64,000 bases of DNA, from the NCBI GenBank assembly GCA_035274845.1, contig DATENU010000022.1, forward strand, positions 310,001 to 374,000, read 5' to 3'. Both the position numbers and the translations under genes were made by a program. Positions 9,716-19,357 of this stretch are shown here, in pieces; the stretch's first letter is position 1; each line of letters begins with the position of its first letter. The DNA is from Chthoniobacterales bacterium (GTDB taxonomy: Bacteria; Verrucomicrobiota; Verrucomicrobiia; Chthoniobacterales; UBA10450). Below the pieces are notes generated by a model that had not been told where the DNA came from, ran no database searches, and saw nothing but the letters and a program-made list of their open reading frames with translations.

Positions 9716-11499
9716 TTCACGGCCGAACGTTTCTCCAGTTTATCCGCCACCGGTCCGTAACCAATGGCTCGCGCCCAATCGGCCGCCGTTCGGCCGTTGT
9801 TATCTTTTTCCGAAATGTCGGCGCCACGACCGAGAAGCAGGTCGACCGTTCTGCTCGCGTTCGCCGAAGCGGCCCACATGAGACACGTGCGGCCATCGGC
9901 GGAGCGAGCGCGAATATCAGCGCCCCGTTTCAGGATGGCGTCCAGCGCCTCCGGGATGTTCGACGCCGCCGCCCACATCGCCAGACTCATTCCCTTCGCA
10001 TCGCGGCGGTCGATCTCCAGGGTCTTCACGGCCAGGTCCTGAATGATTTCGGCGTAGGCCGCAGAAGTAATGTCCTGCCGATTGAAACTCGACGCGACCA
10101 GGAACAACGGCGTTTCCCCTTTCCCATTCACGACGTCAACGGTGGCGCCGTTCTGCAACAGGATCGCGCAGGCCGGTCGATCCATCGCTTTCGCCGCCAA
10201 CAGCAACGGCGTGTCACCGTCATTGTTCGGAGTGTTTACGCCAGCAGCGACGAGCAGCTTTATTTTTTCGATCCTCTCGTCCGGTGCGTGGAGCACCCAG
10301 TGCAGCGGCGTATCGCCCTTATTATCTTTGCTGCGCGGATCGAGGCCTCTATCGATCAGCAGCCTGACCATTGCGGCGTAGCCTAATTCAGCCGCAAAAA
10401 AAAGCGCCGATCGCCCCTCTTTGGTCAAACCCTTCAAATCCGCTCCCTTTCCCTCAAGAATTGAGATGAGCTCGAGTTGATTTCGGCGATCTGTCGTTTG
10501 CTTAGGCTCGGTCCAGTCATCTCCCTTGTGACCGGCCGCGAAATGCACCGCGGTCATGCCATCCTTCATCCGGGCCTTACCGTCGGCGCCGCGGTCAATC
10601 AACGCGCGCGCGATCTCGAAGGCACCTTTTTCTGCCGCTCGCATCAGCGGAGTGAATCCCTCATGCGTAGCAAGGTTCACATCAGCGCCGTGCTCGATCA
10701 GGTAAGCATCGATCTTTTCGGTTTGACCGATGGCCAGGAGCAAGGCCGTGCTGCCGTTCGAATCCTGGGCGTCGAGGTCGGCGCCGGCTTCGACCAAAAC
10801 TTTCACGATGGGCAGCCCCTCGTAGTTGTGATAGCCCGCGACGATCAGGGCGGTTTTGCCATCTGCGTCCCGGCCGTTTACGTCCGCGCCTGCGCGAAGC
10901 AAGACCTGAATCGCGTTGATGTTTCGGATTGGCACCGCGCGGTGTAACAAGCGGCCTCCGTCGCTGGTCTCCTGATTCGGATCCGCACCGAGCCTGAGAA
11001 GCATTTCGATATCGGCCGGCGGCGTGCCGCTGCTCCACATCAGGCGCTCAAGAGCAGTCATTTTTTGACTGCTCCTCGAATCGATCGACAGGCCATGCGC
11101 GAGCAGGAGCCGGAGAATCTTCTCGTATTTTGCATGAGCAGCAAAGACCAGGACGGGATCGTGGTTTTCGGTTTCCAAAGAAGGATCGGCGCCATGCTCG
11201 AGAAGCAGCTTTGCCACTTCGAACCGCCCTTCGCTCACCGCTGCCAGAAGCGGCGTGTAGTTCAACCACGTTCCGGGAACTCTGGCATTCGGATCGGCCC
11301 CCTGTTTCAACAGTTTTTCCGCGGCTTTCGCATCGCCTTTTTCTGCCGCCGTCATCAGAAACCGGTCTAGTTCCTGTTTTGTCACGGCCGGGAGCCCGGG
11401 CGCTAATCCCAGGAACAGGAGCGCAACGAATACGCTCCTCCAATTGCTACCCGCGTGAGATTTTGATACCGAAAAATCTGGCTCGTCCCCCGGGGCCAC
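9712..11499 (-). CDS. Exported ankyrin-repeat protein
   Basis: 595 residues from GTG 11499. A hydrophobic N-terminal segment ('VFVALLFLGLAPGLPAV', about 22-38) is a late signal peptide or anchor, preceded by a polar leader, so a start further downstream is possible. The rest is about 14 ankyrin repeats, for example 'GKTALIVAGYHNYEGLPIVKVLVEAGADLD'. A long non-canonical stretch lies near 'DWTEPKQTTDRRNQLELI'. It forms a two-gene operon with the downstream ankyrin gene and diverges from thrS with only 18 bases between starts. Confidence 0.9.
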   Translation of the reverse strand: MAPGDEPDFSVSKSHAGSNWRSVFVALLFLGLAPGLPAVTKQELDRFLMTAAEKGDAKAAEKLLKQGADPNARVPGTWLNYTPLLAAVSEGRFEVAKLLLEHGADPSLETENHDPVLVFAAHAKYEKILRLLLAHGLSIDSRSSQKMTALERLMWSSGTPPADIEMLLRLGADPNQETSDGGRLLHRAVPIRNINAIQVLLRAGADVNGRDADGKTALIVAGYHNYEGLPIVKVLVEAGADLDAQDSNGSTALLLAIGQTEKIDAYLIEHGADVNLATHEGFTPLMRAAEKGAFEIARALIDRGADGKARMKDGMTAVHFAAGHKGDDWTEPKQTTDRRNQLELISILEGKGADLKGLTKEGRSALFFAAELGYAAMVRLLIDRGLDPRSKDNKGDTPLHWVLHAPDERIEKIKLLVAAGVNTPNNDGDTPLLLAAKAMDRPACAILLQNGATVDVVNGKGETPLFLVASSFNRQDITSAAYAEIIQDLAVKTLEIDRRDAKGMSLAMWAAASNIPEALDAILKRGADIRARSADGRTCLMWAASANASRTVDLLLGRGADISEKDNNGRTAADWARAIGYGPVADKLEKRSAVK

Positions 11500-11517
11500 A
11501 TACAGTTCATCCGATTT

Positions 11518-13950
11518 ATGCCTGAGGAAAGCGAGCGGAAAACTTTAGAGCAACGAGCGCAGATGACGGACATCGAGCGACTGCGGCATTCTGCTGCCCA
11601 CGTCCTGGCGACTGCCATTCTCAAGATCTGGCCGGAAGCGCAGTTCGCCGCGGGGCCGCCGGTCGAGAACGGTTTTTATTACGACCTCGAATTGGACCAC
11701 CGCATTTCGCCCGAGGATTTCGAGAAGATCGAGGCGGAGATGAAGAAAGAGGTGAAGGCGAACCACACCTTTGAGCGGGTCGCCGTCTCGCGCGACGAAG
11801 CCCTCTCCATGGCCCAACGCGGCCTCCTCGGCGCGCTCACCGAGAGATCTTCTCCGAGCAAGTTCAAGCTCGATATCATCCAGAACATTCCCGAGGGCGA
11901 AGAAATCTCGCTGTATCGTAACGGCGAGTTCACCGATCTCTGCGCCGGCCCGCACGTCATGCGCACGGGCAACATCGGCGCGTTCAAGCTCACCAACGTC
12001 GCCAGCGCCTATTACAAAGGCGACGAAAAGAACCCGCAGCTCCAGCGCATCTACGGCACCGCTTTCAAGAACAAGACCCAGCTCGACGAATACTTCGCCA
12101 TGCTCGAGGAAGCGAAGAAGCGCGACCATCGCAAGCTCGGCAAGGAACTCGAGCTTTTCACCTTCGACGACGATGTCGGCCCCGGCCTCCCCCTCTGGCT
12201 TCCGCGTGGTGCCGCCATTATCGAGGAACTGGAGAAGCTCGGAAAGGAAACCGAGTTTGCCGCTGGTTATCAGCGCGTTCGCTCAACGAATCTGGCGCGC
12301 GAAAGCTTGTACATTAAGAGTGGCCACCTTCCCTATTACAAAGAATCGATGTTTCCTCCGATGGAGCTGCATGATGTCTCGGGTAGGGTGGGCGTCTCGC
12401 CCGCCGGTTCGGGCATCTTGCCCGAACGCACTTCCTCCGCCGCTTCCTACACGCGTCGCCGTCGCCTCCCCCATTTCGAACAACCCTGGGCGATCTACGC
12501 GATCACTTTTACTACGCGTGATCATCGTCCCCTCTCCCCGCCCTCGCGCACCGCCGTCCTCGACGCCCTCCGTCACTTTCACGACAAACGTTACACTCTC
12601 ATCGCCGCCGCGGTCATGCCCGATCACGTCCATCTTCTCTTGCAGCCTTGGATCAAGGAACAGGATGCGGCTGGCCAAAATGTCTTCTGGTCGTTAGGCG
12701 AACTGATGCATTCGATCAAATCTTTCACGGCTAAAGAAATCAATCGAATCGAAGGCACCACGGGCGAGGTTTGGCAACAGGAACGTTTCGACCGTTACGT
12801 GCGCGGCGACCGAGATCTGGAGGAGAAATTTCATTACATCGTGGCGAATCCGGAACGCGCGGGATTGTTGGATCCGGAGAAAGGATATCCGTGGATCTGG
12901 ACGCCCGATGATGAAGTTCACTCAGGCAAGATGCCCGAGTCGGCGGGCGAGACGCCCACCCTACCCGAGACAGTGACACCGCGCGTGGACCGGTATTACC
13001 TGAAAGCGATGAACTGCCCGCATCATCACAAGATGTTTGCGGCGCTGCCGAAAAGTTACCGCGACCTGCCGCTGCGGTTCGCGGAGTACGGCACCTGTCA
13101 TCGCTACGAGCAGAGCGGCGAACTGTTCGGACTCATGCGAGTCCGCTCGCTCCAGATGAACGACGCCCACATCTATTGCACACCCGAGCAGTTCGAGGCG
13201 GAGTTCAATGCCGTGAACCAGATGTATCTGAAGTATTTCAAGCTCTTCGGCATCGAGAAATACGTCATGCGTTTCTCGACCCACGACCCGGCCAAGCTGG
13301 GCCAGAAATTCGTCGACGAACCGGAGCTTTGGCTGCAAACCGAGGAGATGGTGCGCGGCGTCCTCCAGCGGTCCGGGATTAACTACGTCGAAGTGCCCAA
13401 CGAGGCCGCCTTTTACGGACCGAAGATCGATGTCCAGGTCTGGAGCGCAATCGGCCGCGAATTCACCATCGCGACCAACCAGGTCGATTTCGCCCAGCCA
13501 AAACGTTTCAATCTCACCTACAAAACACGCGAGAACACCGACGCGATGCCGCTCTGCATCCATCGCGCCCCGCTCGGCACCCACGAACGTTTCATCGGCT
13601 TCCTCATCGAACATTACGCCGGCAACTTTCCGCTCTGGCTTTCCCCCGAGCAAGTCCGCATCCTCCCGATTGGCGATGAGGCACCGCTCGTCGACTACGC
13701 CCGCTCGATTCACGACGAGCTCCGGTCCCATCAAGTCCGCGCGGAGCTCGATGCCAGCAGCGACCACATCAAAGCCAAGATCGCAAGCGCCGAACAAATG
13801 AAAGTCCACACCATGCTCGTCATCGGCAACCGCGACCTGGAAGCCGGCGCTGTCAGCATCCGTATTCACGGCAAAGGAAACCTCGGAGCCCAGCCAAGGG
13901 CGGAAGTCATTGCCGATATTCTTCAGTCAATCAGAGAGCGCCGAGCTTAG
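11518..13950 (+). CDS. thrS: Threonyl-tRNA synthetase with an in-frame RAYT transposase insertion
   Basis: 810 residues, against roughly 610 expected for this form without the insert. It charges tRNA-Thr. The start MPEESERKTLEQ is directly followed by the editing domain, so the N-terminal TGS domain is absent. Editing-site motifs are intact: H24xxxH28 and C142xxxH146. The class II core starts near 'ESLYIKSGHLPYYKESMFPPME' (motif 1 region). It is then interrupted at residues ~286-485 by a RAYT domain, and resumes with 'DRYYLKAMNCPHHHKMF' (zinc ligand C500), 'YGTCHRYEQSG' (motif 2), 'NDAHIYC' and 'HRAPLGTHERF' (motif 3 region). The anticodon-binding domain (from 'VRILPIGDEAP') is complete. Every motif needed for charging is present on the two sides. 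Three further copies of its 3' end lie downstream. Confidence 0.93.
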   Translation: MPEESERKTLEQRAQMTDIERLRHSAAHVLATAILKIWPEAQFAAGPPVENGFYYDLELDHRISPEDFEKIEAEMKKEVKANHTFERVAVSRDEALSMAQRGLLGALTERSSPSKFKLDIIQNIPEGEEISLYRNGEFTDLCAGPHVMRTGNIGAFKLTNVASAYYKGDEKNPQLQRIYGTAFKNKTQLDEYFAMLEEAKKRDHRKLGKELELFTFDDDVGPGLPLWLPRGAAIIEELEKLGKETEFAAGYQRVRSTNLARESLYIKSGHLPYYKESMFPPMELHDVSGRVGVSPAGSGILPERTSSAASYTRRRRLPHFEQPWAIYAITFTTRDHRPLSPPSRTAVLDALRHFHDKRYTLIAAAVMPDHVHLLLQPWIKEQDAAGQNVFWSLGELMHSIKSFTAKEINRIEGTTGEVWQQERFDRYVRGDRDLEEKFHYIVANPERAGLLDPEKGYPWIWTPDDEVHSGKMPESAGETPTLPETVTPRVDRYYLKAMNCPHHHKMFAALPKSYRDLPLRFAEYGTCHRYEQSGELFGLMRVRSLQMNDAHIYCTPEQFEAEFNAVNQMYLKYFKLFGIEKYVMRFSTHDPAKLGQKFVDEPELWLQTEEMVRGVLQRSGINYVEVPNEAAFYGPKIDVQVWSAIGREFTIATNQVDFAQPKRFNLTYKTRENTDAMPLCIHRAPLGTHERFIGFLIEHYAGNFPLWLSPEQVRILPIGDEAPLVDYARSIHDELRSHQVRAELDASSDHIKAKIASAEQMKVHTMLVIGNRDLEAGAVSIRIHGKGNLGAQPRAEVIADILQSIRERRA
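12375..12422. repeat. Left REP pair of the RAYT insertion
   Basis: It contains a GTAG head followed by GGGTGGGCGTCTCGCCCGCC and then a second hairpin, TTCGGGCATCTTGCCCGAA, which extends just past 12422. This two-hairpin layout is typical of REP sequences flanking RAYT genes. Confidence 0.85.
12925..12972. repeat. Right REP pair of the RAYT insertion
   Basis: Reverse complement of the left REP pair with two mismatches. The hairpin cores are in the opposite order, so the GTAG head faces outward at both ends of the element. Confidence 0.85.
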
Positions 13951-13983
13951 CAAAGGAGTGGATGGGATTAACCGGTTCCGACG

Positions 13984-16900
13984 TCAATAAACGTGCAGAC
14001 CGGCGTGCAGCTTCTCGAATTCGGCGCTTCCCAATTGAGCAGGCGCGGCGAATTCGCCCTTCAAATAGTTAAGGAGGCTCTCTTCAGCGTCGGAGAGGTC
14101 TCCTAGTTCGCCCATCAATACGTTCTTAACCGATTGCCTCGCCGCTTTGATGTCCTGATCCGGATACAAATATTTGCAGGCGCAAAGGCCAACCAGAATC
14201 CCTTCGTCTATGTGGTTATCGACAACAGTCGGAGTTTCCTCCGGCGTTGCGAGGCGCGGGAAGTATTTCGCTAGGAAGGCTTGCCATCTCGTGCGGACAG
14301 GCTCGGCTCCACGCTGCTTCATCGCAAGGTAGCGGACTCGATTCAGGAAGCGCTTGAGGGAGCGCGGCGTATTGCGTTTCCTCGAAATAATCGGCTGCCA
14401 GAGCCGCAGCGCCTTGGTGAACTCGGCTGAATCATAAACAACGTTTGCCGGAACCAGAAGCTCGCTCCAGACACCGGCGGCGAGCAAGAGCGCGATGAGT
14501 GGCCAGAGCACCCGGCTGCTGGTTATGTCCGGCATCGCGGAATCCAAAGTAGCCGCCGCCGAAGTGGAGGCCGGCACTGTGCGGACATCGGCCGGGGCTT
14601 GCGACGGCGTAACATTCTCGCCCTCGCCAGAAGAGAAAGAGGTTGTAATCGCGGCCGTAATACCCCGGTTTGGAAAAAGGATTTTGCCGGCGAAAAAGGC
14701 AGCGCCGATCAAAAACAAAGCCGTCATGCCAAGAAGAGCGGCCCGCCGCACCTCGGTATAGCGCAGTTTGCGGGCGCGCTGGCGGACGCCGGCCTCTTCA
14801 TCGCGGGCGAGCAATTCACGTGACTGCTCGGAGGTCGCTTCGGGGACGGGAACTTCGATGTTGATTAGTTTTTCCAAATACTGCTGGGCGTACTCGGCGC
14901 GGCGTCGCTTTCGTTCCTCCTCTTGCTGGTCCGTTGTGCCAGTGCCTTGGCCAAAGACTTCTTCGGCCATGTCCTTGAATGCCAGGCCAACACATTGTTC
15001 CACGCGCTCGCGAGCCATTCCGATGACGATGAAACAATCGCCGCAGGTAATGAGAAAATTCACCGCTTCGAGCATCTCGACCACGCTGTCGGGATGGCAA
15101 CGATCGAGGTCGTCGATCAAAATAAGCATGGTGCGACGATGGAAAGCGCGGAGCGCCCGGGTGACGTCCGCGAATTGTCGGGCGAACTTGTAGCGAAAAC
15201 TTGTCTCCGCCTTCAAATCGCGGAGCCGCGGTCTGTGCGAACTGGTGGCGAGAAGACTGGAGGGATTCACTCCAAATGAACGCAGCGATTTGACCAGCGC
15301 GACAACGGCCCCGATCAGACTTGTAACAAAGACGAGCGCCGCGGGCCCGTGACTCTGGTCTTCCGGGTTGGTTCGGCTGGCGTCCGGCATCAAAACGTCT
15401 CCGAGCATCTGCAACGCGGCGGTAGTGAAGGTCGCCGGTTTCTCAGCTGCTTTCGCGACCGGGGAATTTGTATCGGGCCCGGCCGAAGATTTGACGCTCT
15501 TCGACGGCTCCGATTTTTTGAGACGGTCGCCGATGAAATCACCGATGCTGGTAGTGAACCCACGAAGTTCCCGCGCCACTCGTTCCATCCGACTCGGCTC
15601 GGCCGCGAAGTATCCGGCGAATCCCGCGAGAAGGACCCCGAGAAAGAGCGAGATGCGCCAATAACGGCGGGCCCGAAACCAAATCAGCGAAGCCCGATAA
15701 CAAAAACCTTGGATGCTAAAGAGCGCGGGGATCGCCTGCGCCTGGATATTTTCCAGCAAAGCAGCCAGGAGGTGTTCCTCCTTTTGATGGTGCCAGGGAT
15801 TGAACCAGACCGGCCGGAACCCGCGCGCTCGCAGATCGCCACGGAGCAGATTCATGAGGGAGCTCTTGCCAGTTCCCCACTCACCGGTTATGGCGATGCT
15901 CAGCGGTGGCGTGGTGTTCGCATTCCGCAGGAAGCGCGAGAGGCCCAGGGCGACGGCGTTGAATTGCAGCGGGGCCGGCTCGCCTGGCTCAATCGGTCGA
16001 TCCGAAGCGAGAGTGTCGGCAACCGAGCTCTGCTCCTTAATTTCCGGGGATCGACGCAGAACCGGAACACAAAGCCCAAGGCAGACCAGGCAGGCGACAT
16101 AATACCAAGGCGCGGGAAAACGACTATGGTTTCCTGCCTGTTGCCATTGCTTCTTGAGTTCAAGAGAAGGTGTTAACGCCAGCGGTCGCCATGACTTGCC
16201 CGCATCATTCGTTGCGTAAATGATTCCCTCGTCCCCAACTGCCCAGGCGTCATGGTCATTACCCGTGAACAGGATACTCTTGATCCTTTCGTCCGGAAGT
16301 GTTGGAGCATCGGCCGGACGTCGATCGAGCATTCGCATTTTCACCGGCTTTGTCGACGGGCCAATCCAGGCGATGTGCCCCAGGCCTTCGATTGGAATAA
16401 AAAAGGGCGGCACTGTTTTTTTCGCCTCCCAGTCCCCCCATTTCGGGCTGCTCTCGTTCACCCGGTAGAGCACGGAGTTGGAACCCCATGCCCATGCCTC
16501 CATAGTGGTGAAAAGAAAGGCACTCTGCACGGAGGGACGAGGAGCGGCCGACTTATACATCATGGTCAAATCTCCACTTCGCTCGCTCTTATAGAAGTCG
16601 CCGTTTTTTGCGAGAGCAACCAGACGTCTATGTGAATCAAAGGAGACCGCGAGAAAGTCTAGGTAAATACGAGACGGTTCAAATTGCCACGTTCGCCCAC
16701 CATCTGTCGTCCGCGCGATCGCTCCCTCTCTCCCTACTGCGGCACCATGCTCCTTATCGTAGAATGAGATTGCCGTCAGATCCGGAAAGACAATAACGTT
16801 CGTGGAATCTAACTGCGGACCCGGCGTTACAGTGGGAGACGGACTTGGGGGAAGATTCCCTGCAGGACCCTGTCGGATGAGATCTCCGGACGAGTCCGGA

Positions 16901-17352: not shown

Positions 17353-17451
17353 TTGCGCAGCATGACTAGCTTAAGCGAAAAACGCGATATGATTCTGTAT
17401 CTAGCGCGATATGCCCACAACAAGATCAACGCTCCGGCTCAGCGGAGGCCG

Positions 17452-17609
17452 AGCAGATGAAAGTCCACACCATGCTCGTCATCGGTAACCGCGATCTGGA
17501 AGCCAACGCGACCAGCGTTCGCGTCCACGGCAAAGGAAACCTCGGCGCCAGGCCGCGCGATGAAGTCATCGCCGATCTATTGAAATCGATCGGGAAGCGA
17601 AGCCGTTAG
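17452..17609 (+). pseudogene. thrS 3'-end fragment, copy 1
   Basis: Translates as 'EQMKVHTMLVIGNRDLEA', then a tail 'HGKGNLGARPRDEVIADLL' ending in TAG at 17607. This matches the last ~53 codons of thrS in the same orientation and reading frame. Differences are spread over synonymous and conservative sites (DNA roughly three-quarters identical), as between orthologues of different species. Weaker similarity continues upstream to about 17411 and is then lost. It has no start codon and lies just upstream of the KAP gene. Confidence 0.88.
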
Positions 17610-19015: not shown

Positions 19016-19143
19016 CGCTTCAAGAGCTGAGGGTTTGTTTTCGGCGGAACTCGCTTCCTTCTTACATCTTCCCGGAAACTCCGATCAAGAATATCTACGG
19101 GAAGCGAAGATCGAAGTTTCTGTTGTCGATCTTCAAACGAGCT

Positions 19144-19357
19144 ACGCCGGCCATTCCCGCTCTGGCTCGCACCGAGCAGGTCCGCATCCTCCCGATCGGC
19201 GATGAGACGCCGTTCGTCGATTACGCCCGCTCACGGCGAGCTCCGCTCCTATCAAGTCAGCGTCCGCGTCAGCGGGAAAGGCAACCTCGGCGCCAGGCCG
19301 CGCGGCGAAGTGATCGCAGACATCCTGGCGTCGATCAAAGAGCGGCGCGCGACTTGA
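19144..19357 (+). pseudogene. thrS 3'-end fragment, copy 2 (frameshifted, internally deleted)
   Basis: 19144-19240 matches thrS from about 13614 (coding 'EQVRILPIGDETPFVDYARS'). A small deletion changes frame, about 115 bases are missing, and 19263-19357 again matches the thrS terminus ('GKGNLGARPRGEVIADIL', ending TGA). Same orientation as thrS. More decayed than copy 1 but covering more of the anticodon-binding domain. Confidence 0.85.

Follow-up and report, generated by a model that had tools for sequence, protein, structure and literature searches.

A REP-flanked RAYT transposase in frame within threonyl-tRNA synthetase, and its counterparts in other core genes, in Chthoniobacterales

In a 64,000-nucleotide stretch of the genome of a Chthoniobacterales bacterium (assembly GCA_035274845.1, contig DATENU010000022.1, positions 310,001 to 374,000; hereafter the window), the threonyl-tRNA synthetase (ThrRS) gene thrS contains a REP-associated tyrosine transposase (RAYT) flanked by inverted repetitive extragenic palindromes (REPs). 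No other full thrS was found, and we consider it highly probable that the in-frame transposase is translated as a tethered domain of a likely working enzyme, one that likely still moves REP pairs. The sequence itself shows a frame without stops, retention of key residues in the synthetase and the transposase, a like arrangement in other core genes and other species, purifying selection and a REP number that tracks the RAYT.

The thrS frame (11518-13950, plus strand) runs for 810 codons without a stop, predicts a protein of 92.7 kDa and scores 589.7 bits against the thrS family TIGR00418 (cut-off 383.65). Alignment to solved ThrRS structures assigns its first 288 amino acids (aa; 11518-12381) to the editing part and the beginning of the catalytic part, while family profiles and the same alignment assign aa 491-810 (12988-13947) to the catalytic core beyond the motif 1 region and the anticodon-binding domain. 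An N-terminal TGS domain is apparently lacking, the first residues matched (window 11518-11570) being 67-70 of the solved enzymes. All editing, zinc, motif 2 and motif 3 residues checked by alignment are kept, on both sides of the insert. H24, H28, C142 and H146 align with H73, H77, C182 and H186 of Escherichia coli ThrRS, C500, H551 and H682 with C334, H385 and H511, and R529 and R691 with R363 and R520, which we take to be the editing, zinc, motif 2 and motif 3 positions of that enzyme. The insertion point falls between the residues matching 327 and 329 of Staphylococcus aureus ThrRS.

From arm to arm, the inserted element spans 12375-12972. Its inverted arms (12375-12437 on the plus strand and 12910-12972 on the minus strand) are 63 nt long and 89% complementary, and as single-stranded DNA both fold into two hairpins (12387-12405 and 12407-12427 in the left arm) with z-scores of -4.2 and -3.6, none of 200 shuffles being as good. 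The element ends are approximate, the automatic arm extents having run over into host codons; the arm score was at least 50 in 100 of 134 elements. A pattern search places a GTAG-tagged REP core, shared with 19 other genome copies at up to three mismatches, at 12381-12402 (plus strand) and its inverted counterpart at 12945-12966 (minus strand). The exact core occurs twice in the window, against zero expected from shuffles, and the left arm is free of stops in two of its three frames. The RAYT core itself (aa 311-467; 12448-12918, plus strand) was delimited by family and structure-profile matches. The family NF047646 (REP_Tyr_transpos) matches aa 319-459, scoring 79.8 bits in the whole protein and 84.1 bits in the genome search (cut-off 80). 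The HUH motif, H370-V-H372, lies at 12625-12633 and the likely nucleophile, Tyr440, at 12835-12837, both on the plus strand. A profile match to E. coli TnpA_REP (PDB 4er8) is weak (E 0.032, the best of eight listed) and sets the HUH motif opposite LPEHMH and the tyrosine opposite DYIYINP. The adjacent NPERAG deviates in its third position and agrees in the others with NP(L/V)(R/K)xG, the motif described next to the RAYT tyrosine (PMC2817692). The first-pass annotation, made from the sequence alone, had correctly described the 810-codon frame, the ThrRS residues on both sides, the RAYT within a ThrRS loop and H370-V-H372 with Y440, which is the tyrosine of FHYIVANP and not that of FDRY. It had also described the inverted REP arms, giving 48 bp for what is measured here as 63 nt.

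General searches were less informative about the RAYT part. A Pfam scan of the fused protein at E 0.001 returned no transposase family, and a single-sequence PDB search with the RAYT gave weak matches alone, at E 0.24 or worse, with one putative transposase (E 0.8) among the matches listed. Structure models based on 32 close sequences and on 58 alignment rows reached predicted template modelling scores (pTM) of 0.28 and 0.56, and confidence in the second was below 50 in the REP arms and in synthetase stretches 504-509 and 529-544. Foldseek/VIA searches with the predicted structure returned ThrRS and its kin, and no RAYT fold among the matches listed.

The genome (4.54 Mb, 95.92% complete, 24 contigs) yielded one full thrS and two C-terminal fragments downstream of it. 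A second thrS as the working copy was rejected, the search of this assembly having found nothing but fragments besides the full gene. Of the two options raised by the first-pass annotation, a working synthetase with an internal transposase is favoured over a second thrS elsewhere, given that no other full copy was found and that the key residues are kept. The fragments themselves are degenerate duplicates of the 3' end of thrS, at window positions 17421-17607 (72% aa identity) and roughly 19126-19357 (52%); they lie 3' of thrS with minus-strand genes between, as if elements had repeatedly entered the 3' end of this gene. Two further RAYTs of the same genome reside in frames of 1165 and 1318 aa, the hosts being valS and carB, each single in the genome. 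In other words, three core genes of one genome (thrS, valS and carB) carry an in-frame RAYT.

The REP core of the thrS RAYT has 20 copies in this genome at up to three mismatches, 11 of them without any, and a reversed-pattern control gave none. The number is below the 100 or more copies described as usual for REPs (PMC2817692). All 20 form inverted pairs, nine of which are RAYT-free and 108-148 nt long, the tenth being the thrS element. Four RAYT-free pairs are in frame, two in uvrA and one each in alaS and an error-prone DNA polymerase gene; one more is near the end of a quinone-oxidoreductase-like frame, and the frame lists gave no recognised host gene for the remaining four. REPs of the carB and valS elements number 6 and 11. 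In two other genomes with a ThrRS RAYT the thrS-type REP occurs 34 and 30 times; where the thrS loop is RAYT-free (17 genomes) it occurs 0-5 times, and in G026, from which thrS was not recovered, once. The number of thrS-type REPs thus seems to go with an embedded ThrRS RAYT, the groups compared being small and non-independent.

The thrS fusion, as the window by itself could not show, is one case of a widespread in-frame residence of these elements. A protein search with the RAYT part, limited to proteins 0.55-1.75 times the query length, gave 1215 hits. Among the 120 listed are ThrRS, AlaRS, RecG, an aminotransferase, DNA methylases and some AlaRS proteins with two RAYTs. The genus (8 genomes) gave 67 RAYT-like rows, some of them fragments; 12 are in frames of at least 400 aa, the hosts being RecG in five genomes, MetH and CarB in two each, and Sua5, ValRS and ThrRS in one each. 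At the level of the order, RAYT matches at E 1e-20 were found in 84 of 213 genomes; frames of at least 400 aa hold 122 of the 138 RAYT rows, a frame of 372 aa one, and frames below 300 aa 15. The 135 distinct RAYT cores from the order and genus are distributed among RecG (43), CarB (19), MetH (15), AlaRS (14), Sua5 (4), ValRS-like proteins (4), ThrRS (3), unlabelled long frames (20) and short frames (13). These host labels come from motif patterns. When ten representatives were checked against NCBIfam, eight were named (MetH, Sua5, CarB, ValRS, LeuRS, RdgB, RecF and AlaRS) and L122 and L227 remained unnamed. Outside Verrucomicrobiota, the 46 named loci include Phycisphaerales ValRS-like frames and two proteobacterial frames.

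Several individual arrangements stand out. AlaRS of L108, P0007 and P0008 has two complete RAYTs at two sites per protein, and in the RecF of L242 (2155-3897) a B-type RAYT is N-terminal rather than internal. One CarB region (L074, L075 and L164) holds either of two RAYT types, A and B, depending on species. Free-standing A-type RAYTs (L086, L088, L090, L105 and L140) have frames that extend through both REP arms. The RAYTs of L122 and L123 lie in frame within long proteobacterial frames, whose products presumably resemble DNA methylases.

The RAYTs residing in host genes look maintained. The 120 listed proteins supplied 128 segments; one of the two histidines is present in 126 of them, and the other, like the tyrosine, in all 128. 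Among 134 distinct RAYTs in frames of at least 400 aa, three are without HUH and three without the tyrosine; these losses come from seven pattern misses inspected by eye, one of which retains HxH. The median ratio of nonsynonymous to synonymous substitution rates (dN/dS), restricted to pairs with dS of 0.1-1.2, is 0.168 in RecG (13 pairs), 0.147 in AlaRS (6), 0.132 in MetH (2) and 0.145 in CarB (2), values that indicate purifying selection.

Phylogenies suggest that embedded RAYTs are host-gene-specific lineages that come and go among close relatives. On a tree of 167 RAYTs, 24 changes account for the host labels, whereas shuffled labels take 91.6 on average and none of 200 shuffles is as low; the 31 ThrRS RAYTs need 3. 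On a ThrRS tree of 64 rows, built with the insert excluded, a minimum of 10 changes in RAYT presence is required, and the window ThrRS groups with its own genus, adjoining RAYT-free copies. The alignment of relatives proposed in the first-pass annotation shows a fusion that recurs at the same site, yet patchily. Host and RAYT distances correlate in ThrRS (Mantel r 0.52, 0 of 2000 permutations, 28 fused proteins); the pair P0046/P0048 has a host distance of 0.199 and a RAYT distance of 0.013. In RecG (37 fused and 19 RAYT-free genes, the latter including L269 with its REP pair and leaving out L272), at least 14 changes are needed, 64 of 500 shuffles being as low, and the Mantel r is 0.37 (0 of 2000). 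Among 83 genomes of the family, recG is split in 30 (frames of 839-989 aa) and unbroken in 30 rows (686-804 aa). The RecG loop harbours several REP types and, in one RAYT-free gene, a REP pair alone. In thrS, all 41 other readable loops of the family are without a RAYT (5 of the 47 fetched loci were unreadable); they are 20-103 aa long, in frame and stop-free, and contain short loops, REP pairs or unrelated inserts. Such unrelated inserts (L035, L036, L038, L040-L045, L048, L051-L059 and others), mostly of 50-95 aa, occupy the loop in many relatives, look helical by eye and vary among close species.

A number of observations weigh against our interpretation. The thrS RAYT is dispensable, since none of the other 41 readable thrS loops in the family has one. 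A catalytic residue is lost in six of the 134 in-frame RAYTs, and in 93 of the 134 an in-frame ATG, GTG or TTG lies within 40 codons upstream of the RAYT core (with a Shine-Dalgarno-like 4-mer in 23), so that a second start inside the host gene may exist in those cases. The REP comparison includes three RAYT genomes and is uncorrected for relatedness, and in one genome (G114) some thrS-type REPs flank an AlaRS RAYT (contig C149). The P0046/P0048 pair may be an assembly error. RAYT presence in RecG is barely more clustered than expected by chance and fits loss as well as gain. Finally, confidence in the structure model is middling.

The same data bear on the alternatives. Purifying selection and the long stay at fixed sites would also be expected if the host had co-opted the RAYT domain, keeping it for a benefit to the enzyme or for REP-based regulation and not for movement, and RAYTs have been termed domesticated single-copy genes (PMC8049555). 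However, the patchy presence among close relatives, the multiple RAYT/REP types in one RecG or CarB loop and the REP count that follows RAYT presence make co-option unlikely. We regard as still less probable a decaying hitchhiker, that is, a dead RAYT merely tolerated by the loop. The copies devoid of a catalytic residue and RecG loops with a REP pair alone would suit it, whereas dN/dS of 0.13-0.17, HUH and tyrosine in nearly all copies, and REP cores that are identical within the genome would not.

It is also conceivable that the mature enzyme is normal, the insert being excised from the transcript or the protein or bypassed during translation; the long inverted arms could bring both junctions close to each other. 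Nonetheless, Rfam gave no self-splicing intron match up to E 1 across 11400-14100, Pfam and NCBIfam scans of the fused protein at E 0.001 gave no intein family, and removal or skipping would not need the other thrS loops to be in frame and stop-free, as all 41 are. We therefore find this quite improbable. As to an assembly or binning artefact, we are apparently dealing with a draft genome from an uncultured organism, yet a chimera was rejected because proteins encoded on many different contigs, one of them 4.02 Mb long (P0015), share both the fusion and its site, and valS and carB are built alike. With three such genes in one genome, we give an artefact hardly any weight.

Under our preferred reading of a translated, tethered and probably mobile RAYT, the REP arms would act as flexible linkers, and the transposase would be expressed from the start and stop signals of its host. 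The element would survive through arms that can be read, and insertion, recombination or loss would account for the turnover of copies in the same loops, the RAYT probably mobilising its RAYT-free REP pairs around the genome. With a probability that we put only slightly above even, these elements represent a class of mobile element that is a single through-reading frame from one terminal repeat to the other. Such an element would have given up its own gene signals, would be translated as a loop domain of essential enzymes and carried along by them, and would return to equivalent loops in related species. If so, this would be a third solution, beside self-splicing introns and inteins, to life inside a gene.

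A transposon in an essential gene is expected to be lethal; here such insertions are tolerated, conserved and likely active as protein domains. They are found in ThrRS, AlaRS, ValRS, LeuRS, RecG, MetH, CarB and Sua5 across the order and, more thinly, in Planctomycetota and Pseudomonadota. Embedded RAYTs may serve as natural maps of permissive loops. RAYT/REP function would also become testable, since the transposase would accompany every synthesis of an essential enzyme. Among the open-licence matches listed, titles and abstract openings describe no RAYT within a synthetase or another essential gene, in line with the first-pass annotation, which knew of no described RAYT/synthetase fusion. Automatically assigned protein names in one source do include 'threonyl-tRNA synthetase/REP element-mobilizing transposase RayT', so the fusion already exists as an unremarked annotation.

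Known elements residing in genes resemble the thrS element in part. Inteins with homing endonucleases form gene-specific lineages, are patchily present and lie in frame in conserved genes, and in all three respects embedded RAYTs are alike; an intein, however, has a splicing domain, whereas none was found in the thrS insert, which is predicted to remain in the protein. IStrons, which combine an IS605-type element and a group I intron, likewise place an IS200/IS605-type transposase within host genes, but no intron was found in the thrS element, which is thus without a known route of removal from RNA. Close counterparts are the RAYT/TnpA_REP proteins and REPtrons of E. coli (yafM) and Stenotrophomonas as described in PMC2817692 and PMC8266576. 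They share with the thrS element the HUH motif and tyrosine, a similar though not identical NP motif beside the tyrosine, inverted GTAG-tagged REPs and further REP pairs in the genome. In the REPtrons described there, the RAYT is an open reading frame of its own, with its own start and stop between the REPs, whereas the thrS frame runs from host codon to host codon within an essential enzyme. The thrS RAYT also belongs to the enzyme superfamily covered by the TnpA_Y1 survey (Quentin et al. 2018, PMC6006769), which, by its own description, set unexpectedly long proteins aside as fusions or annotation errors; embedded RAYTs would explain such proteins. Intragenic REPs are known as well, Opitutus terrae and Rickettsia conorii being the main cases presented in PMC3733652. 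The GTAG REPs of O. terrae and the palindromic elements (RPE) of Rickettsia, the latter compared by description, are in-frame palindromes in protein genes, including uvrA and tRNA synthetases. According to that account they encode about 20-82 aa. The thrS element differs from them in that it holds an entire transposase and in that further genes of its genome carry in-frame REP pairs belonging to its own family.
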